From: Bacteroidales bacterium
GTDB taxonomy: Bacteria > Bacteroidota > Bacteroidia > Bacteroidales > F082
Assembly (NCBI GenBank): GCA_016290215.1
Contig: JAEETH010000004.1
Location: forward strand, 45,954 to 109,953
DNA: 64,000 nucleotides
Reading direction: 5' to 3'
A program made the translations under genes and the position numbers. The notes beneath the pieces were generated by a model. That model worked only from the letters and a program-made list of their open reading frames with translations. It ran no database searches and was not told where the DNA came from. Below, piece by piece: positions 1,097 through 47,331 of this stretch; the first letter of the stretch is position 1; each line of letters begins with the position of its first letter.

Positions 1097-1125
1097 TATA
1101 GTCACAGTTTTTGGATTATTCAACC
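1097..1125 (-). promoter_or_regulatory. Shared alternative promoter, copy A
   Basis: On the minus strand it reads GGTTGAA, 17 bases, CTATA (-10 hexamer TATATA). It ends 69 bases before the ATG at 1027. Same 29-base architecture as nine other sites in the window. Confidence 0.75.
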
Positions 1126-1150
1126 AAAACGCTTTTTATTTACCGTTTTT

Positions 1151-2248
1151 TCAGAAAAACCGTCCACTGGTGGATTTCAAAGGACCTGCTGAGCGAGGAT
1201 CCTTGAAAAACGTTTCCACGTCACTTATGGTGTAACCCAAATCGGGGAACAACGGTTCAAGCGCGGATCGGCGATATTCTCGCAGCAAATAAATGTTGTT
1301 TTCTTTTTCCTTTTTCAGTGGCGTGAGTCGCTTCTGGTATTGCTTGTTGTCAATCTCGCCCGACTTCAGTTGCCTATACAGTTCCTTGCACGCTTCGTCG
1401 ATCTCCTTCTCTCTCTTTTCCTTCTTTTCCTTCTTCTCTTCATAGATGGCCATGATGGCCTTCAGATCGTCGCAATACGCATAAAACAACCTGAATTTGA
1501 GACGTTCAATCGTGTCTTCTAGGTTTTGTATCTTAATTGGCATATCCTTAGTCTTCCAGTAAAGCTCACTCCTCAGATATATATTCTCCAGCTCCATGTC
1601 GTCAATCAAGGAAAGGCTTTCTTTTTCCAAAATATCAACGACCAGTTTCAACGAGTAAGCTTGATACAGGCTCTTTGCCTCATCATAGCGACTGTTAATC
1701 CTCATGAAGTTGGGCCACAACGACGAGAACGGATAGATGGATTCCGTTTCGGTTTTGCCGTTTTCGTCGACAACTCCACAGCGGTTGCTGCCTGATAAGG
1801 GGCTGCCAGCGATTTGGTAAACCAGTTTTTTCATTCCGTTACCATCGCAAATCAAGGCGGTTTCGCAGTTCAGCCACCATTCAAGGTAAACGCCCAAGGT
1901 AGGGTTGTGAAATCCGCTCGTCCCCGTGTAGGCCATTCCGTTTTGGATGGGCACAGGGCAGAGGAACATGCGACTATCCGACATGATCCTGTTTCTGTAC
2001 TGAAGAAACTTGAAAGCATTGTTGCAGAAGAGCGACCAGCCTCCTGTATTTTCTTCGTCAGTTTTAGGAGTTGGAGCTTGCTTTTTCCCACCAATGGACA
2101 AATAAGTGCCGGTGGTGTCCAGTTTCACTTCGTTGTCCACTTGCTCGCCAGCTTGCTCCAAAGGATAGCAATCGAGTACATTGCCGTTCAACAGTTGGAT
2201 TTTCCCTTCAGGATGTTTGAAGTCGTCGTGTGTTTTGATGATGCCCAT
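1151..2248 (-). CDS. Uncharacterised protein with charged coiled-coil segment, 365 aa
   Basis: I do not recognise this protein. It has no signal peptide or obvious membrane segment. The middle contains a hydrophilic region rich in Trp and Cys, and residues roughly 265-305 are a Lys/Glu run (EEKKEKKEKREKE) that should form a coiled coil. The frame is open back to 2281 (MNRLPL), but the -10 box of the upstream promoter covers 2293-2297, so transcription should begin near 2285. That leaves too little leader for 2281 and favours the ATG at 2248 (MGIIKTH). It is a single-gene unit or is followed, after a 123-base gap, by the 653-1027 gene with its own promoter. Confidence 0.7.
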   Translation of the reverse strand: MGIIKTHDDFKHPEGKIQLLNGNVLDCYPLEQAGEQVDNEVKLDTTGTYLSIGGKKQAPTPKTDEENTGGWSLFCNNAFKFLQYRNRIMSDSRMFLCPVPIQNGMAYTGTSGFHNPTLGVYLEWWLNCETALICDGNGMKKLVYQIAGSPLSGSNRCGVVDENGKTETESIYPFSSLWPNFMRINSRYDEAKSLYQAYSLKLVVDILEKESLSLIDDMELENIYLRSELYWKTKDMPIKIQNLEDTIERLKFRLFYAYCDDLKAIMAIYEEKKEKKEKREKEIDEACKELYRQLKSGEIDNKQYQKRLTPLKKEKENNIYLLREYRRSALEPLFPDLGYTISDVETFFKDPRSAGPLKSTSGRFF

Positions 2249-2292
2249 GATGATTGATTTTATTAATGGAAGTCTGTTCATGTCTATAGTGT

Positions 2293-2321
2293 TATAGCAT
2301 TACTGATTGGATTATTCAACC
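2293..2321 (-). promoter_or_regulatory. Shared alternative promoter, copy B
   Basis: Minus strand: GGTTGAA, 17 bases, CTATA (-10 hexamer TATAAC). Its first spacer bases (TAATCCAA) match those of copy A, suggesting that the two promoters are related by duplication. It drives the 1151-2248 gene and decides its start. Confidence 0.75.
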
Positions 2322-2371
2322 GGAATAACAAAAATTTTTTGCGTCTGTAAAAACAATCCCATTTCTTCATT

Positions 2372-2447: not shown

Positions 2448-2453
2448 ATATAG

Positions 2454-3118: not shown

Positions 3119-3125
3119 ACTATTT

Positions 3126-3154
3126 TATAGTTTCAGTTTATGACATTTTCAACT
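3126..3154 (-). promoter_or_regulatory. Shared alternative promoter, copy J
   Basis: Minus strand: AGTTGAA, 17 bases, CTATA (-10 hexamer TATAAA), with a T-run and TTCC just upstream as in other copies. It points toward the 2454-2993 gene across a REP-like element. Confidence 0.65.
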
Positions 3155-3315: not shown

Positions 3316-4380
3316 ATGAAAAGTGGAACAAACACAGTATTTGGAGAACGGCTGGCCAATGCCCGTAAGATGCGGTGCCTCTCGCAACGTGAGCTAAGCG
3401 AGAGGCTCGACATTTCTCTGTCGGCCAACGCCATTGCCAAGTACGAGACGGGCAAGATGATGCCGACAAGCGAGGTGCAGGCGGCCCTCGCCGTCGCGCT
3501 CGGGGTGGACATCGATTATTTCCACCACCCCTTCACCGTCAGCATTCCTGCCAGTGCCTGGAAATTCCGTAAGCGGGCTTCGCTAGGCACCAAACAAATT
3601 GCCGCCATCCAACAAATGGCCACCGACCAGATGGAATGCATCGCCGACATCGAACAGGTGTGCAACATCAACCAACCCTTTCAACTTGACTACAGCGACA
3701 CCCCCGTCGCCACCTTCATCCAAGCCGAAGCCATGGCACAACGCGTCCGCAACGAACTCGGCCTCGGCAACGCCCCTATCTTTACCCCTATCGCCTTGCT
3801 TGAGTCGCTTGGCGTCCGCATCGTGGAGGTGGAGGCCGACTCAAAGTTTGACGGCACCAGCGCCATGGCCGACCACACCCCATTGCTCGTCCTTAACGCC
3901 ACCTACGAACCCGAACGGAAGCGCTTCACCCTCTTCCACGAGATGGCGCATCTGCTGCTCCGTTTCGAGGAGGGTGCCGACGTCGAGCGCCTCTGCAACG
4001 CCTTCGCCAGCGAGATGCTCATCCCCACTTCGGTCCTTGTCGAACGTCTCGGCGAGCACCGCAAGAACCTTACCTTCGATGAATTGGCAGGTCTGCAACG
4101 CGACTACGGCATCTCCATCGAGGCCCTCATGTACAAAGCCCACTTACACTGCATTATCGACGATGCCTATTCCAAACGATTCAACATTGCTGTAAACAAG
4201 AAAACTAACGTAGCGTACCGCGACCGGGTGCGCATTAGCATTTGGCAACCCGAAAACACCACTTACTTGCGCCACCTCGTGCTGCAAGCCCTTAGCAACG
4301 AACTCATCACCCCCGCCAAGGCAGCCTCGCTGCTCGACGTTGAGGTGGATTCCATTGATCCAAAAAACATATATGTCTAA
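3316..4380 (+). CDS. XRE-family regulator with ImmA/IrrE metallopeptidase domain
   Basis: Residues about 8-65 form a helix-turn-helix (LANARKMRCLSQRELSERL, then SANAIAKYETGKMMP), typical of XRE/Cro DNA-binding domains. The second half has the ImmA/IrrE zinc peptidase signature LFHEMAHLLL near residue 212, an HExxH motif, followed by a downstream conserved NAFASEMLIP block that contributes a third ligand in the family. Known relatives are phage or mobile-element regulators, and antitoxins of COG2856-type toxin-antitoxin pairs that pair with PIN-like proteins. The next gene starts four bases after this stop, so they form an operon. It is transcribed against its neighbours and has a housekeeping-type promoter. 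Confidence 0.85.
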   Translation: MKSGTNTVFGERLANARKMRCLSQRELSERLDISLSANAIAKYETGKMMPTSEVQAALAVALGVDIDYFHHPFTVSIPASAWKFRKRASLGTKQIAAIQQMATDQMECIADIEQVCNINQPFQLDYSDTPVATFIQAEAMAQRVRNELGLGNAPIFTPIALLESLGVRIVEVEADSKFDGTSAMADHTPLLVLNATYEPERKRFTLFHEMAHLLLRFEEGADVERLCNAFASEMLIPTSVLVERLGEHRKNLTFDELAGLQRDYGISIEALMYKAHLHCIIDDAYSKRFNIAVNKKTNVAYRDRVRISIWQPENTTYLRHLVLQALSNELITPAKAASLLDVEVDSIDPKNIYV

Positions 4381-6114: not shown

Positions 6115-6193
6115 CTGATACTTAAGCTGGTTTTTTAGGAAAAAAACACGGGGTGGTTTGTAAGATATACAGAATCAATATGTTAAGTATCAG
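6115..6193. repeat. 79-base segment bounded by an 11-base perfect inverted repeat
   Basis: CTGATACTTAA at 6115-6125 and its exact complement at 6183-6193 enclose an AT-rich segment; the right arm overlaps the stop codon of the WG-repeat gene. It may be a terminator stem or a remnant of a small mobile element. The rest of the gap 5960-6189 shows nothing else. Confidence 0.35.
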
Positions 6194-6825
6194 TCCAAAA
6201 TATCAAGATACTGGTCGCAGAAGCACTCAATCAGCATATCGTGCCATGTGTCCTCATCCATGGTTGCTTTCAGACTTGCCGGGATGAAGCTATGGTCTTC
6301 GACCTTCACATAGCCTTTCTCACCGTTAAGGGTAAACAGCGTAGGCTCGTCAATGTCGAGGACTTCGATGTCGTCGTAGATGGGTTCCAGCAGTTCGTCG
6401 ATAACCCACTGCCAGAGACCTTGGTGATTGCCGCTGCGGAAATAGACCGTCTGGCCGTCGCAGCTGTAGGAATCGAGGTTGCAGGGGGTGACTTCGCGAC
6501 CGTCCATTGCCATGATGCCAAAGCGGTTGCCTTTTTCTTTCTTGTAAAGGAAATGGTTAGGAATCTCGGGCACTGCTGCGATGGTCTCATAGACAAAAGG
6601 TGTGAGTTCGGTGCCCTTGCCGTCGGGGCGCACCAGCCCACATTTGTCGTCTTTGATGGCCACATAGGGACGTGTGTCCCAAATGAAATCGGAATAAGTA
6701 TATGCGAATTCGTCGTAATTAGCAGGAATGATGACTCGTCCATTGGGGAGTTTCACGCCCTTTTTGCCGTTTTCGCCGGTGAAGACTTCTGAGAAGTTGT
6801 TTTGGGGTTCGTTGTTGTTTTGCAT
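6190..6825 (-). CDS. WG-repeat-like protein, 211 aa
   Basis: The protein is built of short units with the WG-repeat flavour: a strand, 'G..' turn, then another strand, e.g. KKGVKLPNGRVIIPANYDE, DKCGLVRPDGKGT, NRFGIMAMDGREVTP and KGYVKVEDHSFIPAS. WG repeats in bacteria form beta-propeller-like binding surfaces and have no enzymatic role. There is no signal peptide, so it is probably cytosolic. It has its own promoter copy at 6873-6901 and is followed by nothing on the same strand for more than 3 kb, so it is a single-gene unit of the putative regulon. Confidence 0.75.
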   Translation of the reverse strand: MQNNNEPQNNFSEVFTGENGKKGVKLPNGRVIIPANYDEFAYTYSDFIWDTRPYVAIKDDKCGLVRPDGKGTELTPFVYETIAAVPEIPNHFLYKKEKGNRFGIMAMDGREVTPCNLDSYSCDGQTVYFRSGNHQGLWQWVIDELLEPIYDDIEVLDIDEPTLFTLNGEKGYVKVEDHSFIPASLKATMDEDTWHDMLIECFCDQYLDILD

Positions 6826-6872: not shown

Positions 6873-6901
6873 TATAGCGCAGAGAGGGTGCTTTTTTAAC
6901 C
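6873..6901 (-). promoter_or_regulatory. Shared alternative promoter, copy G
   Basis: Minus strand: GGTTAAA, 17 bases, CTATA (-10 hexamer TATAGG). One mismatch in the -35 block. It lies 47 bases before the WG-repeat gene. Confidence 0.65.
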
Positions 6902-6911: not shown

Positions 6912-7415
6912 TCAGAAGAAGGTCATCGTGCTGTTCGGGTCGCCGGGCATGTAGTAGTCTTTCAGCTGCACAATTTCCTTGGCGTTTTCAAACACCTCTT
7001 CGAAGGTGACGTGATATCCCCAGCCATCCTCTGTCCCGTCCTCGTAGCAGCCAAACAGCTTCTTGATTATTTTTTGAGCCATTTCGGGGCGGTCCTCATG
7101 GAGATGCTTGAAGAGGTATGAACTGCCAAATGTCAGCACCTTGGTGAGCAGGAAAAGGTATTCCTCGTCGCTGAGCTCCACAAAGTCTTTCCTTGTGGGT
7201 TCAATTGCACGGCGTGTTTTCACATTGAATTTGCAGGCCGACATTTCATAATAATGTTCGGGGTGGTAGAAAGGTTTTTTCTTGTTTGCCAGGTATTCTT
7301 TTGCCACAGCGGCATTTTTTGCCTCCTCCTCAAGGAAACGGAGTTCCACTTTGTTGAGTTCGTCTGGGGTGAGGTTCATGTCAGAGCCATCATCAATGGG
7401 GCCTAGAAGAATCAT
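6912..7415 (-). CDS. Uncharacterised 167-aa protein, paralogue of the 44349-44852 protein
   Basis: The protein has exactly the same length as the product of 44349-44852 and aligns with it: a 'YYP.Y.M..CK' segment near residue 55, then L(S/N)DEEY..LLT..L..G..Y.F.HL near residues 83-106, 'AKEI.QLK.Y..PGD.N' near the C-terminus. The central L.D.EY..LL block also occurs in the proteins of 22581-23669 and 23800-24822, so it defines a small local domain family of unknown function. No catalytic motif or signal peptide is seen. It has its own shared-promoter copy. Confidence 0.75.
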   Translation of the reverse strand: MILLGPIDDGSDMNLTPDELNKVELRFLEEEAKNAAVAKEYLANKKKPFYHPEHYYEMSACKFNVKTRRAIEPTRKDFVELSDEEYLFLLTKVLTFGSSYLFKHLHEDRPEMAQKIIKKLFGCYEDGTEDGWGYHVTFEEVFENAKEIVQLKDYYMPGDPNSTMTFF

Positions 7416-7440: not shown

Positions 7441-7469
7441 TATAGTCTGATCTATATGATTTTTCAACC
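7441..7469 (-). promoter_or_regulatory. Shared alternative promoter, copy F
   Basis: Minus strand: GGTTGAA, 17 bases, CTATA (-10 hexamer TATATT); T-run (GTTTTTTTTCTC) upstream. It lies 25 bases before the ATG at 7415. Confidence 0.75.
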
Positions 7470-8046: not shown

Positions 8047-9204
8047 TTATGAGAGATGACGACTATCGCGCTGACATATTGGTGATGTATCAGGGGTGTC
8101 TGTAGGTACAAGTATACTCTGGAGTTCTTTTGCGACAGCCTCGGCAAGTAATACCGGGACTCCATTGCCAATCACCTTAAACTTTGCAGACTGTCTTTCT
8201 GGACCCCATACGTATTTGTCATCTACACTTTGAAGCCTCAAAGCTTCTCTAACTGTCAATCGTCTATTCTTATAGGGATGGAGGAATACCTCATTGTTTC
8301 CAAAACATGTTGTAGGGCTATAACGGAATCTATGAAGACGTTTAAAGGAGCGCCTTTTCGTGTCACCTTCTTCTATTTCCATTCGGCTGTCAGCGTTTTT
8401 TGAAAAAGCGAAAAACTCATTTCCATTTGGCAGTTCTTCAGCTCCACAAACACATTTCTCTACACATAAATCAAATGGGATTTCCTGTGGCTTTACAACA
8501 TCTTTGCACCCGAAAGGATTCTTTTCTGGCCAGTTGTAACAAGTCGTGGCGTTAGGGTATTGGGGTTGTGGCCAAGGGAATTCAAAGCTTCTAATGTCTT
8601 CAATCGTTGATTCTTTTTCGTTGTCAACAACAAACAAGTCTTTTCTTAACCCAACGATAAAGACTCTTTTACGATATTGCGGAACGCCATACTCCAATGC
8701 ATTAAGAGTTGCCCTATCCAAATAATAGTTCTCGCTAATTAGCTTTACGAGAAGCGTATCTAATATTCGCTTGGGTTCTTTACGCATTAACAGCCCCACA
8801 ACATTCTCCATCACGAAAAACGACGGTTTCATTTTCATAATGCGTTCAAGGAAAACATGTGTCATTTTCCCACGAGCGCCCTTAAACCCATCCCCTTTCC
8901 CATTCATTGTAAAATCTTGACAAGGCGGACCTCCAATAACTCCCCATAATTCTGGAATACCTTTGGGGAATGCTGTTTTGAGTATGTATTCTGGGGTCAA
9001 ATCGGTTAGAGATGATGTACTAGAAATTGGACACAATTTCTTTTTATGTCCTCTTGCCCACGATGATATTCCCTCATCATGAAGTTCTGCAAATGTCTTA
9101 TCATATTCATTTGCAAACACGACGTCAAAGCCGACATTTATGAACCCCATGTCCATGAAACCGCCGCCGGAAAACAATGATATTATTGGGATGCGTTTGA
9201 CCAT
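8047..9204 (-). CDS. DNA (cytosine-5) methyltransferase (DruM-like)
   Basis: The protein is 385 aa and shows the C5-methylase motifs in order: motif I ISLFSGGGFMDMGF (residues 8-21), motif IV GGPPCQDFT with the catalytic Cys, motif VI FFVMENVVGL, motif VIII QYRKRVFIVGL and motif X GNGVPVLLAEAVA near the C-terminus. It methylates cytosine in DNA at a target I cannot predict. It is the last gene of a closely packed four-gene run (979-aa protein, helicase, nuclease, methylase). In Druantia type II the methylase DruM accompanies DruE, DruF and DruG, which fits this set; a methylase that marks self DNA for the other three is the natural reading. Confidence 0.9.
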   Translation of the reverse strand: MVKRIPIISLFSGGGFMDMGFINVGFDVVFANEYDKTFAELHDEGISSWARGHKKKLCPISSTSSLTDLTPEYILKTAFPKGIPELWGVIGGPPCQDFTMNGKGDGFKGARGKMTHVFLERIMKMKPSFFVMENVVGLLMRKEPKRILDTLLVKLISENYYLDRATLNALEYGVPQYRKRVFIVGLRKDLFVVDNEKESTIEDIRSFEFPWPQPQYPNATTCYNWPEKNPFGCKDVVKPQEIPFDLCVEKCVCGAEELPNGNEFFAFSKNADSRMEIEEGDTKRRSFKRLHRFRYSPTTCFGNNEVFLHPYKNRRLTVREALRLQSVDDKYVWGPERQSAKFKVIGNGVPVLLAEAVAKELQSILVPTDTPDTSPICQRDSRHLS

Positions 9205-9205
9205 A

Positions 9206-10288
9206 TTATAATTGTTCGTAAACGAGCGTGTTTTCAGTTATTTTATACGTATAGTCATCTGCAATTTGTGATGCACGAGCGACATTGACAAACGTCAACA
9301 TTTTCCCAAGGTAATCTCTATAAGAATCCACTTCATAAGCGTCTAAGCCTGATACAAACAACGTATTATCTCCACTTTGTAAAACATACATGTTTGAACT
9401 AGGTAACTCAATTACACGGCCAGTTATTGTTTGATAGTATGAATCTGATCCGATCGCTCTAAACTTACAAATATGCCGACAGCTACAGTTTAAACACATT
9501 CCCAACTCAGGCTTAGCACATGAAGAAAACGACCTAGAAGATACCGTATTGTTTAGCACTTGTAATGTTTCCAGTACTTCGGATAAAAGGTGATGGCTGT
9601 ATTCTGGAAAATATGGAATTTCAAAACACTCACCATCAATGTCTATCAACATTAGAGAGCGAGGAATGCCCAATGACAAATGTTTGCACATTTCTGCATA
9701 GAGATGCAATTGAATAGAATATTCCAGTTTAATAATTCCACTTTCATCTTTAACATGTCCCGACTTGAAATCAACCACATCAATACAGCCATTGTCCACA
9801 ATTAGTTTGTCTGCAACTCCTTTGAGACCTATATCCGAGCAATCCAGTCGTTTCTCGGAATAAACTTTTTTTGTTCCGCTGTCTACTGTTGCTTTATTTG
9901 TTTTTTTAAGCATGCTTAATGCATAACGGATGGCACTGTTGCGTTTATCATAATTATTCAAACTGGCATGACGCAAGGTTGGATAATTAGCCGATAATTT
10001 ATCTTTTTCAACGATAACAAGTTCTTCCCATTTGTTCTTTAGATCCGCAATACTACTCAGTTCTCCTTTAAGTGTGAGCTCATACATCTTATGTATTATG
10101 GTACCGAGTATTGCATTCCTGTTGGATGGTAATGACAAAGAGGTATCATTAAAAACATTAAGTGCTTTTTGAAGTAATACTTGATAACCGCACCCTCGGC
10201 TCACCCATGAGAATGTACTTGGAGACAATGTTTTTATAGTAACATTATCCCAAGTATTATCAACATTTGGAATTTGGGTAAACCTCAT
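9206..10288 (-). CDS. PD-(D/E)XK nuclease with Fe-S-type cysteines (candidate DruG)
   Basis: The protein is 360 aa. Residues about 170-185 carry the RecB/Cas4-type core: GVADKLIVDNG then IDVVDFKSGHV, i.e. the Asp plus D-x-K pair, followed by a QLHLYAEM helix (the QxxxY motif). Late cysteines CLNCSCRHIC together with an upstream Cys (GCGYQ) match the iron-sulphur cluster of AddB/Cas4 nucleases. The ATG overlaps the helicase stop by four bases (ATGA), so translation is coupled. I infer that it is the nuclease subunit of the Druantia-like complex; assignment to DruG rests on gene content and not on direct comparison. Confidence 0.8.
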   Translation of the reverse strand: MRFTQIPNVDNTWDNVTIKTLSPSTFSWVSRGCGYQVLLQKALNVFNDTSLSLPSNRNAILGTIIHKMYELTLKGELSSIADLKNKWEELVIVEKDKLSANYPTLRHASLNNYDKRNSAIRYALSMLKKTNKATVDSGTKKVYSEKRLDCSDIGLKGVADKLIVDNGCIDVVDFKSGHVKDESGIIKLEYSIQLHLYAEMCKHLSLGIPRSLMLIDIDGECFEIPYFPEYSHHLLSEVLETLQVLNNTVSSRSFSSCAKPELGMCLNCSCRHICKFRAIGSDSYYQTITGRVIELPSSNMYVLQSGDNTLFVSGLDAYEVDSYRDYLGKMLTFVNVARASQIADDYTYKITENTLVYEQL

Positions 10289-16503: not shown

Positions 16504-16516
16504 ATATGTACGTTAA

Positions 16517-19885: not shown

Positions 19886-19901
19886 GCTTTTTTATTCGGT
19901 A

Positions 19902-33924: not shown

Positions 33925-33953
33925 TATAGACTTCTTTTCAGCCGTTTTCAACT
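33925..33953 (-). promoter_or_regulatory. Shared alternative promoter, copy K
   Basis: Minus strand: AGTTGAA, 17 bases, CTATA (-10 hexamer TATAAA). It ends 25 bases before the ATG of the SIS gene. Confidence 0.65.
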
Positions 33954-37837: not shown

Positions 37838-38798
37838 GTAGGTACATATTAGACAAGGCGTTCATGAAAGCCCTGCGTTTTCGTTCTTCATCGATGTCGT
37901 TTTTGTATTTGAACACTTCCTCGAAAGCGGCGAGGTTGCCGCTGCGGTCGTTGTGGTCGCTGAGGATGGCGAAGGTGATGAGGCGGTAACGGTCTTTGAA
38001 CTCGTCTTCTTCCATCACCTGCTTGAAGAGTTCAGCCATCTCGCGCGGCGGGGTCTTGAAGGCACCGCAGCCAAAGGCACCCAGCACCAGGCTGTCGTGG
38101 CCCTTGATTAGGCCTATGCGGAAGATGGTGCGAATCTTGTTGAGCGTGATGGCCTTGCCCTCTTCGGGGATGTGCCCATCGGGAGTGAGGCGGATGGGGA
38201 ACCTGCCGTTCATGTTGAGTGCGGCATTGGTGATGACGCCGATTTGGAAAGGCTCCTCCATCAGCGTATAGTCGGGGCCCGCTTCGCGGAAAACCGTGAC
38301 TTGGGGCGAATAAATCGCACTGAAGTCGAGCGAGCGGGAGATGGGGTAGTTGTTGCCTTCGCGATGTTCGTAGCCGTAGCGAGTGGCATACTTGCCATCA
38401 AAGCTGAAGATGGAGCGCGTCAGCGTGCTGCGCCGGCAGATAGTCTCTTCCTGGGCACGGGCACCGCCTTCCACGCCACCACCGGGGTGTCCAGCACTGG
38501 CAAAGTTGAGCAGGGCAGGGTTGTAACCCTCTTTGACCAATTGCTCGGCCACCTTGAGGCAATCGCCTTTTTCGACCCTGACAAGACTACCGTTTTCCAG
38601 CTTTGGAGCGTCAACAGGACCTAAATCCTTGTGGTAGCAACGACTTCCGTCGATCATCGGTTGCATGTCGAGGTCGATGCGTTTGCCCGAAGGGGTGATG
38701 TAGTAGCCGGTCTTGATGATGCCGGTGGTTTCGCGGAACACCTCTGCATTGCGTTTCTTTACGAGGGTGACTTGGGGGTCATAGTTGGAACTACGCAT
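37806..38798 (-). CDS. Microbial-type PARG (TIGR02452/DUF2263) ADP-ribose glycohydrolase
   Basis: The protein is 330 aa. It carries the catalytic PARG signature HPGGGVEGGARAQEE near residue 110, with the glycine-rich loop and the two glutamates that bind the ribose, plus VLGAFGCGAFKTPP near residue 245, the macrodomain-like phosphate-binding turn. The family removes ADP-ribose from modified targets. It is the first gene of the cassette PARG-NADAR-PfkB-ART and is preceded by a shared alternative promoter 33 bases upstream, so the whole cassette should respond to the same signal. Confidence 0.85.
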   Translation of the reverse strand: MRSSNYDPQVTLVKKRNAEVFRETTGIIKTGYYITPSGKRIDLDMQPMIDGSRCYHKDLGPVDAPKLENGSLVRVEKGDCLKVAEQLVKEGYNPALLNFASAGHPGGGVEGGARAQEETICRRSTLTRSIFSFDGKYATRYGYEHREGNNYPISRSLDFSAIYSPQVTVFREAGPDYTLMEEPFQIGVITNAALNMNGRFPIRLTPDGHIPEEGKAITLNKIRTIFRIGLIKGHDSLVLGAFGCGAFKTPPREMAELFKQVMEEDEFKDRYRLITFAILSDHNDRSGNLAAFEEVFKYKNDIDEERKRRAFMNALSNMYLLEDHETTRND

Positions 38799-38831: not shown

Positions 38832-38860
38832 TATAGTAGCAGATGTTGATTGTTTCAACC
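38832..38860 (-). promoter_or_regulatory. Shared alternative promoter, copy H
   Basis: Minus strand: GGTTGAA, 17 bases, CTATA (-10 hexamer TATATA). It drives the ADP-ribose cassette 38798-35729. Confidence 0.75.
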
Positions 38861-38911
38861 TTATTTTGTTTTTATTGCTTAGTTTTAGACAAAATTCTTG
38901 CTGCAAAATTA

Positions 38912-39370
38912 CTAATTAATACCATGAAAGCAAAAGCTTTTCAATAGATGATTGATTGTTGCCGAATCGACTTGCCCTTGTGGGTAAGTGAGTTGTAATG
39001 TGAGGATGATGTCGCCATTGTCTGTGTTGGGGAAACGAGCTGTTTTTGTGTAATGGACCGTCCCGGATGCGTCAATATCGTGGTGCACATAAAACACCTC
39101 GTCTTGTGGATAAAGGTCACGGGTGGTCAAGCCCGTGTCGTCCAAATCCATCCAGGTCATGTCCATGCACCCGGTGGCTGTCAATTCCAACCCTTTGCCG
39201 TGACAAGAGATACCGTCGCCATTCTCAGGCGGTGGATCCATCGTCATGAAGGAGGAATAGTCCAGCTCAAAGCCGAAGCGTTCATTGTGGTAATGGACGT
39301 ATTCCGTGGTTTTAGGCTGACAGCCGGTCATAAAAACAAGCCATACAAAAAGCAATAATGACTTTTTCAT
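38912..39370 (-). CDS. Small lipoprotein, 152 aa
   Basis: A lipoprotein signal peptide is seen: Lys-Lys start, hydrophobic core, then FMTGC with the lipidated Cys at residue 17. The mature part (FGFELDYSSFMTMDPPP) looks like the small beta-rich domain found in several Bacteroidetes lipoproteins of unknown function. It ends with a cysteine-containing KSFCFHGIN. It lies 12 bases downstream of a membrane protein gene and may be cotranscribed with it and the 39671-40084 gene from promoter copy C. Confidence 0.75.
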   Translation of the reverse strand: MKKSLLLFVWLVFMTGCQPKTTEYVHYHNERFGFELDYSSFMTMDPPPENGDGISCHGKGLELTATGCMDMTWMDLDDTGLTTRDLYPQDEVFYVHHDIDASGTVHYTKTARFPNTDNGDIILTLQLTYPQGQVDSATINHLLKSFCFHGIN

Positions 39371-39670: not shown

Positions 39671-40084
39671 TCATGCCGCGCAGGAAGCCGATGGGGCTTC
39701 CTGCAGCTGCTTGGCCGTCTTTGGGAGGAGGCTTTTGGAGAAGAGGATCACCAGCCGCTTGGCTTGGGCCATTCCCCTTTTTGAGCCGACCATAAGGTGG
39801 TAGAACACCGTCGACTTGGTGGTGAAGACCAGTGCCACGACAGTGCCGTTGCCTTGGTCGCGCAAACGGAGCGGTTCGATGCAAGGCTTGGCCTCGAAGG
39901 CTTTCTTGTTGAGCAGCTCCGAGCTTAGCTTTCTGAGTGCAAGCAGTTTGTGACGGTAGGTCACCTCTCCAACGGTGACTTGTTCGTACCACATGTCGTT
40001 CTCGAAGGTGGTTTGGTGGGTTTCGTTGCCGGCCGACTTGAGCATTTCGGCGAATTCCGTTTGGTTGACTTGCTGGATCTCCAT
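39671..40084 (-). CDS. Small uncharacterised protein, paralogue of the 653-1027 protein
   Basis: The protein is 137 aa and aligns with the 653-1027 product over about 115 residues (MEI start, FEND.WYEQVTV...YRHKLLALR.LS, FYHLMVGSK, SKSLLPK), then has a short extra tail ending APSASCAA. The frame is open to 40144, but homology and the promoter at 40152-40180 place the ATG at 40084. The two paralogues are about 39 kb apart but share both promoter type and leader length (67-69 bases), suggesting duplication of the whole unit. Function unknown. Confidence 0.75.
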   Translation of the reverse strand: MEIQQVNQTEFAEMLKSAGNETHQTTFENDMWYEQVTVGEVTYRHKLLALRKLSSELLNKKAFEAKPCIEPLRLRDQGNGTVVALVFTTKSTVFYHLMVGSKRGMAQAKRLVILFSKSLLPKTAKQLQEAPSASCAA

Positions 40085-40151: not shown

Positions 40152-40180
40152 TATAGAACAAACCTATGGGTTTTTCAACC
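40152..40180 (-). promoter_or_regulatory. Shared alternative promoter, copy C
   Basis: Minus strand: GGTTGAA, 17 bases, CTATA (-10 hexamer TATAGT). Its spacer is nearly the same as in copy D at 44888-44916 (ending GTTTGTTC in both). A T-run and CTCCCCC lie upstream of the -35 block. Confidence 0.8.
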
Positions 40181-40212: not shown

Positions 40213-43101
40213 TCAATCAATGGTAACCACTTTCACCTCGCTGCTGGAGAGGTTTCCTTCTTGTATCACCTGAATCTGTACGGGAATCTTACTTTGCAGC
40301 TCTTCCACATGGCTGATAATGCCCACATGTCGACCCGACTTGGTGTGGAGCGAACGCAGTGTATTGATGGCATTCTGCAAGGGTTCGCCACTGAGTGTGC
40401 CAAAGCCCTCGTCAATAAATAGGGTATCCACTGCCAGCTGTTGGCCAATATCACTGAGCGCAAGAGCCAACGACAAGGAAACGAGGAAGCTCTCTCCACC
40501 GGAGATGGTGCTTGCCGCACGGCTCACATAGCCTTGATAGGCATCTTCGAGCGAAATGACGAACGTGCCAGGCACCACTTTCAGCGTGTATCGGTCGGTC
40601 AGCGTCCTCATATAGTGGTTGGCCGAATGGATGAGGCTGTTCAACACATAACTCTGGGCAATTTTACGGAACTTATTGCCCGTTGAGTCGCCAATGAGCT
40701 GATTCATGCGCGACCATTTTTGATAATCGGCTTCCTTTTTGTTGGCTTCTACCTTCAAATGGCCAAGCTGTTTCTTGTTCTCTTCATCGGCCTTCAGCTC
40801 CTGGTTGATGGCGCCCTTCTTCTCTGAGATGTCAGACATCTTTTTTTCATTGTCCTTGATGCGCTCCTCCATCAATTCGATGGAATCTTCCTCCTTCAGT
40901 TCGGGCTTCGTTTGTCTGTGTTCTTCCAGTTTCCGACTAGCCTCATCTTTCAGGGTTTTCTTAGTAAGCACTTTGTTTTTGTCGGCTACAAGCAAGGCTT
41001 GGATCTCGTTGATGTTTTGTGAAGAGTGGGCATTCAAGGCGGTCAGTCGCTCTAAGTCAAGTTCTGGATGAGTACCAAGGAAGGCCCTCAATTGCTGTTC
41101 GTTGGTATTAAAGGTGTCCGTTGCTTGTTTCAGCTGCACCTGTTCCGTGTTCTTCTTGAGCTCTTCGGCGATGGCGATTCTACCTTTGCAGTCGCTGATG
41201 GCTTGTTCGGCCTTCTGTGCGGTCTTTTTCAGTTGCTCTAGGCCCTTGTTGGCCTTATCGAGGGCATCTCTTTGGGCCTTGATGAGGTTTTCCTTTTTCT
41301 CGCCTTCGGCAATCTTGTTTTCAAGTTTTTGCAGGCGTGTCTCGGTGTTGGCCTTTAAGGTGGCCAGCTTCTCGGTGGTGTCTTGGTCGATGGTCTCAAA
41401 ACCACAAATCTTGCAGGCCTCGATGACTCTTTGGGTGGCCATCTTGAGGGTGTTGTCTTTGTCGAAGGCCTCTTTTTCCTTGTCGTACGATGTTTTGGCA
41501 GCCTTTATCTCAGCTTCCAGCTTGTTTTTCTCGTTCACTAGTTCTTGGTGCGCCGACTCGGCCTCGGTGTAAGCCGCTCTCAGCTCACCAACGAGTTGTG
41601 CCAGTTCTTCTTCATGCGGCAGCTCGCTTTTGATTTCCTGTCGGCAGACGGGGCAGATGTCGCCCACATGCAGTTTTTGGCGCAGGGTCTGGGCAAACTT
41701 GTCGATGGTGTCGCTTTGCTTGTCGAGCAATGCCTTGCGGTCGTCCATCTTCACCTTGGCGTCGTGGATGAGCGGATCCATGGTTGCTGCCTCTTTCTGT
41801 TTTTGATCGATGTCGGCAAGTGTATCTTTGAGCAACGTGGTTTTGCTTTCTCTGCGGTCCTTTTCCTTTTTATAGGTCTCGATTCGCTCGTAGGTCGTGG
41901 CGATGTTTCGCTGCAGCTCCTTGGCGTTGTCGCGTTCTTTGCGCAGTTCGGGCAGATGGAGCTCGGCAAGTTCAGCATCTTGGGTCTTTAACTCGACTTC
42001 CTGTTTCTCATAGGCGGCTTGCGCGTCATTGACCTCTTTTTGAGCCTTTTCTAAAGCAGGCTGTAACGTTTCCGAAAGCGTCTTTCTTTCGTTATAGATG
42101 GTATTGTCGCAGGTTTCTATTTGCTTTTTCCCGTTGGCGATAGCTCTCTCGGCTGCCTTCATCGCTCCCATCCAGTTGCGGGCTTCAATCGTGGCATTCC
42201 ATTGGTGGACCAGCGTTTCCTTGTTCTTGAATTCGTCGCCTTCCACTACAGCTTGAGCCTGTAAGTGCTCTTGAGTGGCAGTGGTGACAGCCTTTTCCAA
42301 GTCGGTATCCGTCTTAATCCATTGCAGTTTGGCCTTGTCCGCTTCGCCTGCTTTCTTGACCTGCTCCAACAGTGCTTCGTATCCGGCAAGCTCCTCCTTT
42401 TTGGCAGCGATGTCTTCTTCGTCCATGGTGCTCATGCCTTCGACCTTTTGCTGGGCTGTTTCCCATTCTTTCTTCTTTTGACCAGTCACATCAAAGACCT
42501 TCTTGCCAATCTTCGAATAGATGTCAACTCCGGTGATTTTTTCCAGAATTTCTGCCTTGTCGTCATCTTTACTGTTTAGGAAACGGGTGAACTCGCCTTG
42601 AGCCAACAATGTTGTACGGCAGAACTGGCCGAAATCGAGGCCGATGGCCTCTTGAATCTCAGCACTAATCTCTTTGTCTTTGGTATAAGTGAAGGCCGTG
42701 TCGATATTCTTCAATTGCCAGGACTTGCTTTGAAGGGCTCCTGTTGTTTTTTTGTAGGCACGTGCAATACTCCAAGTGGCTTCGTAGTGTATGCCGTTGC
42801 TTCCCGTGAAGGTGAGCGACACAAAAGCCTCGCCCGTATTCCTTCGCATCAGTTGTCGCGGATCTTTGATGGTGACGTCAGCATTTCCGTCTTTCGTGTC
42901 GCCTTGCATCTGCGTTCCAGCCAACCTAGGGGTGGTGGCAAACAGTGCCAGGCAGATGGCGTCCAAGATGGTCGACTTGCCCGAGCCCGTCTTACCCGTA
43001 ATCAGGAACACTTCGCTGTTGGCCAACGGCTGTGCTTCAAAATCAATCGTGGCATCCTCAATCGATGCAATGTTGTGTATGGTCAGTTTTTGTAGTTTCA
43101 T
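40213..43101 (-). CDS. sbcC: Exonuclease subunit SbcC
   Basis: The protein is 962 aa. Walker A ITGKTGSGKST near residue 35, long coiled coils around the zinc-hook CPVCRQEI near residue 484, then the ABC signature STISGGESFLVSLSLA and Walker B TLFIDEGFGTLS near the C-terminus. Together with SbcD it forms the Rad50/Mre11-type complex that opens hairpins and trims protein-blocked DNA ends. The gene follows sbcD by 15 bases. The hook and head motifs are intact, so it should be functional. Confidence 0.95.
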   Translation of the reverse strand: MKLQKLTIHNIASIEDATIDFEAQPLANSEVFLITGKTGSGKSTILDAICLALFATTPRLAGTQMQGDTKDGNADVTIKDPRQLMRRNTGEAFVSLTFTGSNGIHYEATWSIARAYKKTTGALQSKSWQLKNIDTAFTYTKDKEISAEIQEAIGLDFGQFCRTTLLAQGEFTRFLNSKDDDKAEILEKITGVDIYSKIGKKVFDVTGQKKKEWETAQQKVEGMSTMDEEDIAAKKEELAGYEALLEQVKKAGEADKAKLQWIKTDTDLEKAVTTATQEHLQAQAVVEGDEFKNKETLVHQWNATIEARNWMGAMKAAERAIANGKKQIETCDNTIYNERKTLSETLQPALEKAQKEVNDAQAAYEKQEVELKTQDAELAELHLPELRKERDNAKELQRNIATTYERIETYKKEKDRRESKTTLLKDTLADIDQKQKEAATMDPLIHDAKVKMDDRKALLDKQSDTIDKFAQTLRQKLHVGDICPVCRQEIKSELPHEEELAQLVGELRAAYTEAESAHQELVNEKNKLEAEIKAAKTSYDKEKEAFDKDNTLKMATQRVIEACKICGFETIDQDTTEKLATLKANTETRLQKLENKIAEGEKKENLIKAQRDALDKANKGLEQLKKTAQKAEQAISDCKGRIAIAEELKKNTEQVQLKQATDTFNTNEQQLRAFLGTHPELDLERLTALNAHSSQNINEIQALLVADKNKVLTKKTLKDEASRKLEEHRQTKPELKEEDSIELMEERIKDNEKKMSDISEKKGAINQELKADEENKKQLGHLKVEANKKEADYQKWSRMNQLIGDSTGNKFRKIAQSYVLNSLIHSANHYMRTLTDRYTLKVVPGTFVISLEDAYQGYVSRAASTISGGESFLVSLSLALALSDIGQQLAVDTLFIDEGFGTLSGEPLQNAINTLRSLHTKSGRHVGIISHVEELQSKIPVQIQVIQEGNLSSSEVKVVTID

Positions 43102-43116
43102 GGTTATTGTTCTCCT

Positions 43117-44286
43117 TTATTTGTCGTTTCGTGCATCGTCGTTCACCAAATTCACAATCTCGTTAAACATGTCGGTCATCTCTTCGTCGAAGCTGATGCC
43201 TTCGTAATTGGCATACTGTTTGGCGATTTCAATGGGTTGCTCCGCCTGAAATTCCTGTACCGTCAGCACCTTGGCCTCGGTCTGGTTGATGGTTTTCCTT
43301 TTGGCGTTGATGTGGCAGACATGACATTGTTTCTCCTTGACCAGACTTGTCGCTTCGGCTTGGGCTTCAACGGGTAGGAAGTCGTCAATCTCCACGTTCA
43401 AACGGATATAAGCTAGGATATCGTCAGGGAACTTTTTCAACAGTTCCTTGGCCGTTTCCCACGGTGCCAGCCCTTCGGAAGGCAGGGTCACCAAGGGACG
43501 AGGATTGTTGATTTCAATCTCTGTCACGGTTGGAGTATCGCCATGCTTATCGATTTCAACCATACTTACGGAATGACTAAAGGTCTCGTCGAAGCTGATG
43601 GGCAGCGGGGTGCCCGAGTATCTTACGTTATGTTTCCCGCTATGGATAAACTGCCCGTGATGAATGTGGCCCAAGGCCAGATAGTCATAGCCATCGCCCA
43701 GTTGTTCCAAGTCTATCGATTCGATGCCACCCACGACATATTCCGTGCCTTGGTCATGACCCAAGAAATCGCAACCTTTCACCGTGGTGTGGGCAGTCAT
43801 CACCACCGGCAATCCTTCTGTGTTCATGGCAGCCGTCTTGTCGAGCAATTGTTGGAAGAATCCTTCTGGGAGATTTCGTTCGTTGACATAAGGGATGGCG
43901 ATGACGTAGCCTTTTCCAGGCACTTCAATGATATGCTCATCAATGTTCTCCTTCTCCAGCTGTCCGATGGCATATACATTCAGTGCTCGCCAAGGCGTTC
44001 TGAATATCTCGTGTTTCGTGCCGCTGTCGTGGTTGCCGGCAGTCATCACGATGACCATCTCGGGATTGGCCTTGTGTATGCTCACGAGCGTATTCGATAG
44101 TGTAGTCTGTATGGCATTCGATGGCTGTGACGTATGGAAAACGTCGCCACATAGCAGAAACACATCGGGCTTCTGTTCCTCTACAGTCTTAACCATCTGG
44201 TCAAGCATATTTTGCTGTTCGTTAGTGCGGTCGTGACCGTAGAGCACATGCCCCAAGTGCCAGTCGCTGGTATGTAATATTTTCAT
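43117..44286 (-). CDS. sbcD: Exonuclease subunit SbcD
   Basis: The protein is 389 aa. It begins MKILHTSDWHLGHVLYG, the first metallophosphoesterase motif, followed by VFLLCGDVFHTSQPS, VMTAGNHDSGT and later ALGHIHHGQ, which together give the metal-binding site of Mre11/SbcD nucleases. It is the upstream gene of the sbcDC operon, with a TACCTTTG -7 box at 44325-44332, so this ordinary repair operon uses the housekeeping promoter type although it sits between alternative-promoter genes. Confidence 0.95.
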   Translation of the reverse strand: MKILHTSDWHLGHVLYGHDRTNEQQNMLDQMVKTVEEQKPDVFLLCGDVFHTSQPSNAIQTTLSNTLVSIHKANPEMVIVMTAGNHDSGTKHEIFRTPWRALNVYAIGQLEKENIDEHIIEVPGKGYVIAIPYVNERNLPEGFFQQLLDKTAAMNTEGLPVVMTAHTTVKGCDFLGHDQGTEYVVGGIESIDLEQLGDGYDYLALGHIHHGQFIHSGKHNVRYSGTPLPISFDETFSHSVSMVEIDKHGDTPTVTEIEINNPRPLVTLPSEGLAPWETAKELLKKFPDDILAYIRLNVEIDDFLPVEAQAEATSLVKEKQCHVCHINAKRKTINQTEAKVLTVQEFQAEQPIEIAKQYANYEGISFDEEMTDMFNEIVNLVNDDARNDK

Positions 44287-44348: not shown

Positions 44349-44852
44349 TTATATGAAAATCCTGGAATTATTCAAATCACCAGGGAAGAAATAGTTCTTC
44401 AGTTGAAAGATTTCCTTGGCGTTGTCGTGCATTTCGCTGAAGGCAATCTGATAGAGGGCACCTTTGCTCTTCAGGTCGTCGGGATAGCCAGCCATGGCTT
44501 GGGTGAAGACCTTTTGGGCCAGGGCAGGGTTTTCGTGACGAAGGTGACTGAAACGGTAGGTTGTGCCATAGAGCAGTGCCCGGGTAAGCAGATAGACATA
44601 TTCCTCATCGTTGAGTTCCACCTCCACCTTCTGATGATCGAAAAGTTTGCGCTCTTCTACATCGACTTTGGCACAGGTCATCTCATACAGTGGGTAATAC
44701 TTAGGTCTTCTCATGGAGTTGGAATACTCTTTGGCGACTTTCTCGCATTGGTCTTTATCATCGTGCAGCCACAAAGAGAACTTCGGTGGGAGTTCATTAT
44801 TGGGTTCAAAGAGCTCGGCAGGGTTCATGTTGGGGTCTTCAAGGAAAATCAT
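44349..44852 (-). CDS. Uncharacterised 167-aa protein, paralogue of the 6912-7415 protein
   Basis: It has the same length and the same order of conserved blocks as the 6912-7415 product: KYYPLYEMTCAKV near residue 51, LNDEEYVYLLTRALLYGTTY near residue 79, and DNAKEIFQLKNYFFPGD at the end. The N-terminal 25 residues differ. Function unknown; cytosolic. It stands alone after promoter copy D and is followed by sbcDC, which has its own promoter. Confidence 0.75.
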   Translation of the reverse strand: MIFLEDPNMNPAELFEPNNELPPKFSLWLHDDKDQCEKVAKEYSNSMRRPKYYPLYEMTCAKVDVEERKLFDHQKVEVELNDEEYVYLLTRALLYGTTYRFSHLRHENPALAQKVFTQAMAGYPDDLKSKGALYQIAFSEMHDNAKEIFQLKNYFFPGDLNNSRIFI

Positions 44853-44887: not shown

Positions 44888-44916
44888 TATAGAACAAACA
44901 TATTGGTTTTTCAACC
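44888..44916 (-). promoter_or_regulatory. Shared alternative promoter, copy D
   Basis: Minus strand: GGTTGAA, 17 bases, CTATA; the full hexamers read TTGAAA and TATAAT, the closest of all copies to the classical sigma-70 consensus. It lies 35 bases before the ATG at 44852. Confidence 0.8.
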
Positions 44917-44938: not shown

Positions 44939-45469
44939 TCATTCAAAATACTTCATCCCCTCATAGTTATACTTCACGAAGTCCTTTTCCTTGTGGCAAC
45001 TGGCTTGTAGGCGGGGCACCCATTCGTCCATGGGAAGGCCTCCTTTCAGGTAGGTGTTGATGGTCTCGCAGAAGAGGTTGACTTCGTTGAGGATGTCTTC
45101 GTTGGTGTTATTGGGGAAGCCAAAGCTATAGGCTTCATCCCAGTTGGATACGAACATGGAGGTGAAATAGCCTTGTAGGCCATAACGCTCGGCGAAGCTG
45201 CTGGCAAAGCACCAGATGCCGATCACCTTTCTGCCCTTCAGGAGGTCGACAATACTACGGTCAACTACATAATTCATCCAACTGGTACCGAATAGCCCGC
45301 TTGTGGTCCCGTGCCCGAGGCCCATCACCAAGGGGTCGTCGTCGCGCTTAAGCTGTTCGACGACTTCCTCCTTGGTGGGGTTGTACAATAAGGTTACGTT
45401 CTCAAGACCCTCGTAAGTTTTCTTCAACCTAGCGGTGTCTTCCATTGTGTCAACGTGAATCACTATCAT
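44939..45469 (-). CDS. Caspase/CHAT-like cysteine protease candidate, 176 aa
   Basis: The chain opens with a strand (MIVIHVD), a second strand and helix (NVTLLYNPTKEEVVEQL), then PLVMGLGHGTTSGLFG with His53-Gly54, and VIGIWCFASSFAERYG with Cys87. A His-Gly after one core strand and a Cys after the next is the dyad layout of clan CD proteases (caspases, CHAT, gingipains). The domain is small but complete enough to be a minimal fold. The gene follows an AAA+ ATPase gene by 24 bases under one promoter, which suggests an ATPase-controlled protease. The catalytic call rests on motif layout only. Confidence 0.5.
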   Translation of the reverse strand: MIVIHVDTMEDTARLKKTYEGLENVTLLYNPTKEEVVEQLKRDDDPLVMGLGHGTTSGLFGTSWMNYVVDRSIVDLLKGRKVIGIWCFASSFAERYGLQGYFTSMFVSNWDEAYSFGFPNNTNEDILNEVNLFCETINTYLKGGLPMDEWVPRLQASCHKEKDFVKYNYEGMKYFE

Positions 45470-45493
45470 AATCTTTATATTGTTTCGTTGTTT

Positions 45494-47251
45494 TTATCCA
45501 CGGAACCCGATTGGTCTGCGACTATTCGTGTTGCGTCCAGCAATCTGTTCCTTCGAGCAGAGTTCTTCGATGTGGTTGAGGTCAGGGGTGCCACCAAAGA
45601 GGAGGTGGTCAACCATCACCTTGCGCGCTATGTTCTCAATCTGACCCCCGCTGAAGTCGTAGGAGCGGGCCAACACATTGGCATCAGCCTCGGCTAAATC
45701 GGGGATGAAGCTCTGCCAGATGTGCGTCTTAGCCTCAACACTGGGCTGGTGGAACTCCACCTTATACAGGAAACGTCTGTCAAAGGCGCTATCGAGGTTG
45801 CAAGTCAGGTTAGTGGTGGCAATCATAATGCCATCGATGTCTTCCATAGCTTGGAGCAGGATGTTCTGAATCGCGTTCTCCGTCTTCTCAAGGGTGGGGT
45901 TGTTGCCTCCCACGCTCGTGCGCACCGAGAGCACGGCATCAGCTTCGTTGATGAGCAGGATAGGGATGCGTTTCGATTTCTTCACGCGTTGGGCATAGCT
46001 CTCGAAGATGCTTTTCACTATCTTCTCCGTCTCACCGTACCACTTGTCACGAATCGACGAGATGTCGACCTGCATGATGTCGCGGCCCGTCATGCGGGCC
46101 AGTTGTAAGGCAGTCTCTGTCTTACCGGTGCCAGGGGCTCCATAGAAGAGGCAGTTGAAGCCCTTGCGGAGATTGGCTTTCTCCAAACGTTCGCGGATGG
46201 CTTGCAGCTGCTCATCCTCGAGCAGGTGCTGCAAAGTGTCAATTTGTCCTTGGTCCTCGGCGGAATAGAACAACGCTTTGGGCTTGATGTCGTTGCAGCT
46301 GAGCATGTCGCTGTGGTCGTCCTCGTCAACCTCATCGATATTGGTCGGGATGTCGTATTCGCTGAGGAAGAGCTTGCGAGCCTTGTCGGTGAGTTGGAAG
46401 ACATTGGTCGATAACAAGCCGTCATTTGCGGTAAGCGTTAGAAGTCCTTCCTTGATAAAGGGGTGAAGTCCGTTTTCCATTAGTATGGGGAACTCGTCCT
46501 CGATATCGTCGATGGAGAGAAACTCCAACTGACCGAGAGGAACCCTTACCTGGTGGTCGACTACCAGTCGTTTGCAGAAGTAAAGTAGATATACCTTGTC
46601 GGGGTTGTACACCCTTAAGTTGTTAATGTTACGGGCGATGGCTAACTGTGGATTGTCGTTGAACAGCTCCATGGTTTCGTAGTGTAGCTCTTCCTCGTCG
46701 ATTTGGCTGTTGCGACCGGCTTCACGCAGTAGCTTGGTGAAGAGTTTCATGAACTCGTCGGCTGTCAGATTGGCAGTGTTGACAATGGGCAAGGATTGAT
46801 TGCTGCAGAAGGCAACCTTGGCTTTCTCGCTCAGCTGATAGGCAGGGCTGTTGCCGTGAAATGAACCACGTTTTCTGATATAGCGGCGGTGCATCAGAAC
46901 CTTCAGGGTATCCGCCTTACGCATGATGCTGATGGGCGAGCAAGAGAAATAGTCCGTTAGCTCACGGGTGTTCACCGTTGATTCGGAATCGGAGATGAAA
47001 GGGCAGAGCATCACCGCCTCTTCGGGTGTCACCTTTAGGTCGGAGGCCACTGACTCGATAAGGGACTTATGGCGTTTGAAGAATTTGTCTTCGAGCTTAC
47101 AGCCTTGTGCCAGCTGTATGAGTCGCTCAAGTTTGTCGAGCAGGGTCATGCTTTTCAGCATGGTTTTGTTGACAGGAGTAACCAGTGCATACTTGGGGAT
47201 GGGGTCGAACATTTCGTCGTCCAACTCAAAGGAGTCTTGCTTTCTTTTCAT
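45494..47251 (-). CDS. AAA+ ATPase with N-terminal winged-helix-like region
   Basis: The protein is 585 aa. The last 230 residues are an AAA+ module: Walker A FYGAPGTGKTETA near residue 370, a Walker B variant ILLINEADAVL near 432 (Asn in place of the first Asp, as in some AAA subfamilies), sensor-1 IMIATTNL and arginine-finger region SAFDRRF. The first 340 residues contain helical segments that look like winged helices (ISIMRKADTLKVLMHRRYI). The module resembles Cdc48/FtsH-type unfoldases without a protease domain. It is transcribed with the downstream caspase-like gene from promoter copy E, so the two may act as one machine. Confidence 0.8.
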   Translation of the reverse strand: MKRKQDSFELDDEMFDPIPKYALVTPVNKTMLKSMTLLDKLERLIQLAQGCKLEDKFFKRHKSLIESVASDLKVTPEEAVMLCPFISDSESTVNTRELTDYFSCSPISIMRKADTLKVLMHRRYIRKRGSFHGNSPAYQLSEKAKVAFCSNQSLPIVNTANLTADEFMKLFTKLLREAGRNSQIDEEELHYETMELFNDNPQLAIARNINNLRVYNPDKVYLLYFCKRLVVDHQVRVPLGQLEFLSIDDIEDEFPILMENGLHPFIKEGLLTLTANDGLLSTNVFQLTDKARKLFLSEYDIPTNIDEVDEDDHSDMLSCNDIKPKALFYSAEDQGQIDTLQHLLEDEQLQAIRERLEKANLRKGFNCLFYGAPGTGKTETALQLARMTGRDIMQVDISSIRDKWYGETEKIVKSIFESYAQRVKKSKRIPILLINEADAVLSVRTSVGGNNPTLEKTENAIQNILLQAMEDIDGIMIATTNLTCNLDSAFDRRFLYKVEFHQPSVEAKTHIWQSFIPDLAEADANVLARSYDFSGGQIENIARKVMVDHLLFGGTPDLNHIEELCSKEQIAGRNTNSRRPIGFRG

Positions 47252-47302
47252 AAGGCGGGTGATTTAAAAGATTCTTTATATTGTTTCGTCTGTCATTCTA
47301 TT

Positions 47303-47331
47303 TATAGCGCCCCGAATGCAGATTTTCAACC
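47303..47331 (-). promoter_or_regulatory. Shared alternative promoter, copy E
   Basis: Minus strand: GGTTGAA, 17 bases, CTATA (-10 hexamer TATAAA), preceded by CTTTTTTTCACGCCC. It drives the AAA+/caspase-like pair and lies between it and the sigma factor gene. Confidence 0.8.

Follow-up and report, generated by a model that had tools for sequence, protein, structure and literature searches.

The window analysed here, a 64,000-nucleotide stretch from an uncultured Bacteroidales bacterium of the gut (contig JAEETH010000004.1, positions 45,954 to 109,953), carries ten copies of a 29-base element, RGTTRAA-N17-CTATA, together with a gene at 47354-48022 for a sigma-70-family sigma factor of 222 amino acids (aa), hereafter the island sigma; all sites and genes given below lie on the minus strand unless stated otherwise. 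Read from right to left, the sigma gene is followed directly by a site (47303-47331), by the gene of a 585-aa AAA ATPase (45494-47251; Pfam AAA, 2.8e-21; IetA-like at 86 bits in PADLOC) and by a 176-aa gene. Further leftward, the site at 44888-44916 precedes the gene of a 167-aa protein to which family searches gave no family (44349-44852), followed by sbcD and sbcC for an SbcCD-type nuclease (40213-44286), and the site at 40152-40180 precedes a 137-aa-family gene (39671-40084) and two small genes. The site at 38832-38860 stands before PARG, NADAR and PfkB-type genes (36315-38798), which are followed by an ADP-ribosyltransferase-like gene, an aspartyl-protease-like gene and a gene for a lone sigma-54 DNA-binding domain (33974-34846); the site at 33925-33953 precedes the gene of a 358-aa protein without family (32823-33899). 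The left part begins with AddAB-like, RloC-like and Druantia-like genes that lack the motif and then has five more sites before small genes, namely 7441-7469 before a second 167-aa-family gene (6912-7415), 6873-6901 before a WG-repeat-like gene whose match is below the Pfam cut-off (6190-6825), 3126-3154 before a DUF4919 gene (2454-2993), 2293-2321 before a 376-aa gene without family (1151-2281) and 1097-1125 before a second, 124-aa member of the 137-aa family (653-1027).

Ten sites of fixed geometry

An earlier note on this DNA had listed ten minus-strand copies of the element before gene starts and had judged them too many for chance. Our pattern scan of the window returned exactly these ten matches, where 0.044 would be expected from base composition for both strands together, a value consistent with the 0.02 per strand of the note, and 100 dinucleotide shuffles gave none. 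By a hand-made gene list all ten sites overlap no gene; fully intergenic 29-mers amount to 6.8% of the window by the same list, and ten of ten would arise by chance with P ~2e-12. The distances to the start codons, from the site at 47303 leftward to that at 1097, are 51, 35, 67, 33, 25, 25, 47, 132, 11 and 69 bases on the starts chosen here (the gene 1151-2281 may begin further in). When the two boxes were held fixed and spacers of 12-22 were scanned in the window, all ten copies occurred at 17 and none at any other length, in agreement with the identical spacing that the note had described, and in 495 kb of window and related loci, overlapping pieces included, 51 copies had the 17-base spacer as against 0-3 at each other length. 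The fixed spacer, the asymmetric boxes and the position 11-132 bases ahead of the starts support the classical -35/-10 layout predicted by the note.

A genome-wide scan, proposed in the note as the test that could overturn it, was run on the source genome (3.8 Mb in 153 contigs, 85% complete) and did not find the motif scattered inside genes. There were 12 exact copies, ten of them in the window region and intergenic, one on contig C38 and one on contig C126, and the reversed pattern had none. The C38 copy lies 33 bases ahead of a gene that we read, from its sequence, as encoding an HtrA/DegP-like protease (htrA), and at C126:26304 no open reading frame (ORF) of at least 50 aa begins within 300 bases. 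A further claim, that genes with ordinary roles carry the TAnnTTTG box instead, stood only in part: TACCTTTG is indeed present a short way upstream of sbcD, a gene that at the same time follows a motif-bearing gene at 62 bases, and the PARG gene has both the motif and a perfect TTTG-N19-TAnnTTTG at 38904-38934, so that the split is not clean.

Conservation was determined with orthologues of the ten motif genes, which were taken at 60% identity or more and not selected by motif, by searching 220 upstream bases. The results showed the exact motif upstream of 27/36 orthologues, and of 31/36 when at most one mismatch was allowed, as compared with 1/53 other genes of the region; with 160 upstream bases the counts were 25/36 and 0/53. 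Close relatives are counted in these figures, which are hence not independent. These data support the regulon that the note had suggested. Site by site, the motif was exact in 4/4 relatives for 44888-44916, in 7/7 for 40152-40180, in 2/2 each for 38832-38860 and 33925-33953, in the one relative tested for 6873-6901 and in 3/6 for 2293-2321. At 47303-47331 nine relatives gave five exact copies, three with one mismatch and one miss; the 3126-3154 site was exact in genomes G119 and G158 and had two mismatches in G100, and the 1097-1125 site was exact in G100 and had one mismatch in G158. Across 46 compared sites the boxes were 98% conserved and the spacers 61%, a comparison biased by the choice of these sites by their boxes, which leaves the orthologue test as the fair one; the 46-site list omits matches such as G126:C19, C126, G162:C104, G135:C9 and those of G094. 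Around the relatives' sigmas the same gene families recur and the same genes again carry sites, the neighbours being mostly 75-98% identical between relatives and the sigma itself 28-80%. The motif also stands before a 469-aa gene in G158 (L209:11125), RmuC-like as judged from its first residues alone, and before an M42-peptidase-like gene in G144, G104, G166 and G167 (L200:2181), where the site lies within an inverted repeat.

Among the remaining genes, a defence-like block at 8047-22503 comprises a C5 methylase, a PD-(D/E)XK nuclease, a large DEAD helicase, the Druantia-like protein and the RloC-like ATPase, none with the motif. PADLOC gave partial or weak matches on the cluster genes, except that SbcC, the AAA protein and the Druantia-like protein resemble defence ATPases. 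A gene for a helix-turn-helix and ImmA/IrrE-type peptidase protein on the plus strand (3316-4380), divergent from a motif-bearing gene, is kept in G119, G158 and G100. SbcCD (40213-44286) has counterparts at the corresponding position that are more than 80% identical in G114 and G167 and 38-52% identical in G144 and G126, and by sequence these genes seem to have been exchanged between genomes; the motif lies directly before sbcD in G113, G145 and G092. A structure model of the 137-aa family (predicted local distance difference test, pLDDT, 87; tail disordered) had no confident match in the PDB (best E 4e-3, template modelling (TM) score ~0.2).

The island sigma and its association with the motif

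The protein encoded at 47354-48022 is a member of the sigma-70 family, with regions 2 and 4: in Pfam, Sigma70_r4 matched at 34.5 bits (cut-off 24.1; E 1.5e-8) and Sigma70_r2 at 22.9, just under the cut-off of 24, TIGR02937 matched at 61.2 bits versus a cut-off of 42.9, and a PDB profile search matched sigma factors with E down to 7e-20. Its structure model was of medium quality (pLDDT 75; predicted TM score, pTM, 0.56), and Foldseek found sigma factors at a TM score of ~0.3 over the whole chain. Assignment to the FliA/WhiG (group 3) sigmas was rejected, the family scores being 62.3 versus 201 and 58.7 versus 189.6 bits and the 222-aa protein having no region 3 family match. A phage or plasmid sigma was likewise rejected: plasmids gave no relative, phages one at 25% identity and IMG/VR one at 25%. 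The neighbours of the sigma gene are AAA ATPase and DUF2461 genes and a further gene for a 176-aa protein without family, and no anti-sigma was recognised among them, one of a novel type being possible.

In 149 genomes of the family a search with the sigma gave ten matches, all within the window's genus, and of the 99 genomes searched in that genus 15 contained close relatives. To reach this number G098, G102 and G106 (E ~1e-9) were dropped from an initial 18, the G098 and G102 matches lying beside htrA like the second RpoD-like sigma discussed below. The named records of the relatives are uncultured Bacteroidales or Bacteroidia, with RUG isolates and a bin from goat abomasum among them. A second, very divergent sigma ending SLCA is encoded directly to the left of the window (L199:3277-3912, minus strand); it has relatives in G119, G158 and G100, and in G158 and G100 an AAA gene is close by. 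The idea of a sigma beside every AAA paralogue was discarded, as none adjoined the 30 paralogue loci scanned.

For comparison between genomes we used a tight form of the motif, RGTTGAAAA-N15-CTATA, which occurs 97 times in the 99 genus genomes versus 9 times when reversed. The results showed that the 15 sigma carriers account for 69 of the 97 copies, with at least 2 and on average 4.6 per genome, that the 84 remaining genomes share 28 (mean 0.33; Mann-Whitney p 3e-12), and that two or more tight motifs are present in 15/15 carriers versus 4/84 others. By their positions, 15 of those 28 copies precede htrA and four precede sbcD, an AAA paralogue, an M42-peptidase-like gene and a 137-aa-family gene, one copy per gene; the other 9 are close in number to the reversed control of 7. 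G090, which has no close sigma relative, holds three tight motifs (before the 137-aa gene, before htrA with a different spacer, and one other), and in this genome a looser profile found a 276-aa sigma of the island kind ending NMCA. The motif stands right behind the sigma gene in the source genome (G000), G119, G166, G167 and G168. In G113 and G145 it precedes the AAA and sigma genes as a pair, and in G172 it is found 259 bases upstream of the start of the sigma gene. Carriers of the sigma do not cluster on a tree built from 41 htrA proteins, where 10 changes compare with a shuffled mean of ~11, and shared descent alone is therefore a poor explanation of the co-occurrence.

Upstream box, leader and C-terminus of the sigma

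Upstream of the sigma gene lies CGGCACGATTTTTGCA, a sigma-54-like -24/-12 box of the form GG-N10-GC (48165-48180) that is unique in the window at zero mismatches. A complete rpoN was present in 13/13 genomes searched, and in the source genome, where rpoN scores over the cut-off, box and gene together predict a sigma-54 promoter at the sigma gene. The lone sigma-54 DNA-binding domain protein at 33974-34846 (Pfam Sigma54_DBD, 3.4e-25) has the RpoN box and a new N-terminal part but lacks the activator part and the core-binding part. Of the 13 genomes, only G000, G144, G114 and G140 encode it, all of them carriers of the island sigma, and it could compete at the -24/-12 box of the sigma gene.

About 27 bases beyond the box, AAGATTATGA is common to 14/16 leaders (not G125 and G140). 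Two genes of the window have the same string at their start codons, and it therefore resembles a translation start. It opens an ORF of 3-8 codons and varying sequence (2 codons before the second sigma of G114), which in the window is a short upstream ORF (MNS) at 48128-48139 with the start context AAGATTATG. The leader at 48128-48145, with AAGATTATG and the tiny ORF, is conserved even where the sigma protein has fallen to ~33% identity. A known RNA element in the leader was sought and rejected, there being no Rfam match and no common hairpin among single-sequence folds.

The C-terminus of the sigma, MCA, also follows a pattern. Alanine is the last residue in all 19 related sigmas whose C-terminus could be read (14 main-type sigmas, 4 of a second type and the one of G090), as CA in 18 and as AA in one, and in the 137-aa family the C-terminus is AA or VA in 12/12. 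Tag-like C-termini are thus common to two unrelated regulon families, as SCAA (39671-40084) and KVA (653-1027) in the one and MCA (47354-48022) in the other. By analogy with ssrA-type tags, these alanine C-termini may be protease tags.

The candidate regulon and its meaning

The ten sites are very probably -35/-10 promoters of one regulon. In its full form, which we consider fairly probable, our reading is that these promoters (GGTTGAAAA, 15 bases, CTATA) belong to one alternative-sigma regulon and are most likely read by the island sigma. Several findings weigh against it. When one mismatch was allowed genome-wide, there were 69 matches (the 12 exact ones among them) versus 72 in the reversed control, and the signal was lost in noise. 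The helix that would read the -35 box differs from one sigma to another, and the looser-profile search found nothing in G092, G162 and G135, sigma-less genomes with at least two tight motifs. An AAA paralogue with the motif was seen in 4/9 sigma carriers and 1/11 others, a weak contrast; four independent pairs on well-supported branches of the tree included none contrary to the motif, and the sign test was not significant. Moreover, most sites are passed on along with the sigma, and co-occurrence is hence no proof of recognition. At the sigma gene itself, GG-N10-G was present by eye in 11/16 leaders and GG-N10-GC in just 3, the GC becoming GT or GA in relatives, and the sigma-54-like box is missing in 5/16 leaders (G113, G145, G126a, G172 and G140). 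Finally, the htrA site is intact in 22/29 readable close genomes (29 of 30 loci, G165 being left out), in 10/11 with the island sigma and in 12/18 without it, and its retention without that sigma means either that another reader is possible or that the site outlives sigma loss.

Such a reader could be the second RpoD-like sigma (288 aa), which follows htrA in 20/20 htrA regions examined (e.g., htrA at L043:8936-10402, with the gene behind it in L193) and is 53-58% identical to the primary sigma encoded elsewhere. The motif would then be a real alternative promoter read by this core sigma, and the island sigma would have other targets. The htrA-sigma pair is conserved, the htrA motif persists in genomes without the island sigma, and region 4 of the second sigma retains the ERxRQ helix, which in E. 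coli sigma-70 reads TTGA. Yet with this sigma in every htrA region examined, the 84 genomes lacking the island sigma hold just the 28 tight motifs described above; the distant members G072, G109, G041 and G014 keep the second sigma and have no motif before htrA, and the part of it that reads the -10 box is the same as in the primary sigma. We hold this explanation to be unlikely. The htrA site more likely outlives the loss of an often gained and lost sigma, because the motifs in sigma-less genomes, beyond htrA and four regulon-type genes, are near the control level.

If the 29 bases were instead bound by an ordinary activator or repressor that acts together with another sigma, the length of the -35-like box (GGTTGAAAA) would fit, and their promoter status is itself predicted from sequence; but the two boxes are asymmetric and do not form an inverted repeat with each other, the spacer is fixed at 17, the TATA box is rightly placed, and no TTTG-N19-TAnnTTTG with up to one mismatch (at this spacing alone) overlaps any of the ten sites, all of which makes this account improbable. 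It is very improbable that the copies were left behind by gene duplications or transpositions that brought one promoter along, for although two pairs of sites stand before paralogues (1097/40152 in the 137-aa family, 7441/44888 in the 167-aa family), spacers and flanks differ between most sites on clustering, the downstream genes are mostly unrelated, and orthologous sites, picked though they were by their boxes, keep the boxes while the spacers drift.

Under the alternative-sigma reading, the regulon is probably a stress or repair gene set switched on by a sigma encoded among its own genes. It would be spread over a variable 47-kb gene region and a few outside chromosomal genes (htrA and, in some relatives, sbcD and the AAA paralogue). 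Stress would activate the sigma-54-type promoter of the sigma gene, the short leader ORF would serve as a second control, and the sigma, with its protease-tag-like tail, would accumulate and turn on the AAA ATPase, the SbcCD nuclease, ADP-ribose removal (PARG and NADAR), small proteins without known role and, in some relatives, its own operon. We also offer, as a tentative and on balance doubtful extension, a patchily inherited Bacteroidales region with its own sigma and promoter code that has recruited htrA with the second sigma, sbcD and the AAA paralogue; the sigma would be gated by its sigma-54 promoter, by the leader ORF and by its C-terminal CA/AA tail, which a stress-loaded protease would recognise, and the lone sigma-54 DNA-binding domain would compete at the sigma promoter and so close the loop.

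The proposed system is like those of the alternative sigma-70-family sigmas (FliA/WhiG, RpoH, RpoS and the extracytoplasmic function (ECF) sigmas) in regions 2 and 4, in two-box promoters of fixed spacing, in a sigma gene beside its targets and, in some relatives, in a motif before the sigma's own operon. It is unlike FliA/WhiG in its score (62 versus a cut-off of 201 bits) and in region 3, which is not seen in the 222 aa, unlike ECF sigmas with an anti-sigma in that no such partner was recognised beside it, and unlike all of these in being region-borne and patchy within one genus. Two reports give the primary sigma-ABfr promoter, TTTG/TAnnTTTG, as the default of Bacteroidetes (PMC7366714, PMC12632263), whereas the ten sites have GGTTGAA/CTATA at -35/-10-like spacing and no TAnnTTTG. 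In B. thetaiotaomicron, promoter motif 2 and the ECF regulons (EcfO, SigW-1 and SigH-1) represent a second promoter class tied to stress genes (PMC7366714, PMC12596196); as described there, motif 2 consists of a -10 and a -30 element, with TGTT close to -10, and the ECF sigmas act genome-wide, which sets both apart from the ten sites. By these descriptions, the published Bacteroides classes (TAnnTTTG; motif 2 at -10/-30; EcfO) do not match (PMC7366714, PMC12596196, PMC12632263). A further paper describes sigma-54-dependent grpE and groES in Bacteroides (PMC12316311), and the GG-N10-GC box of the island sigma gene is like this folding-gene control, with the difference that the proposed target of sigma-54 is here a sigma of the sigma-70 type and that the region also encodes a lone sigma-54 DNA-binding domain. 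PARG and NADAR are described as removing ADP-ribose from nucleic acids, with a DNA-damage-induced PARG operon in Deinococcus (PMC11833690); the two genes are adjacent in the window as well, but here under a putative motif promoter beside SbcCD and AAA genes. In the open-licence literature, a scope that leaves many subscription papers outside, no description of the motif letters or of the topic was found.

Alternative transcription in Bacteroidetes, as far as these reports go, depends on ECF sigmas and on sigma-54, and the promoter sequences known are few (PMC7366714, PMC12596196, PMC12632263, PMC12316311). An alternative-sigma regulon with a new promoter code and an unusual region-borne sigma would be a type of control new for this bacterial group. 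The clean promoter code and the candidate reader make a stress or repair regulon directly testable, and an orthogonal promoter/sigma pair could serve Bacteroides genetics. Such a regulon would make ADP-ribose removal, SbcCD and htrA parts of a single response, and its fast-diverging sigmas, 28-80% identical, set against one unchanged promoter code would make it a good system in which to study how sigma specificity is kept.

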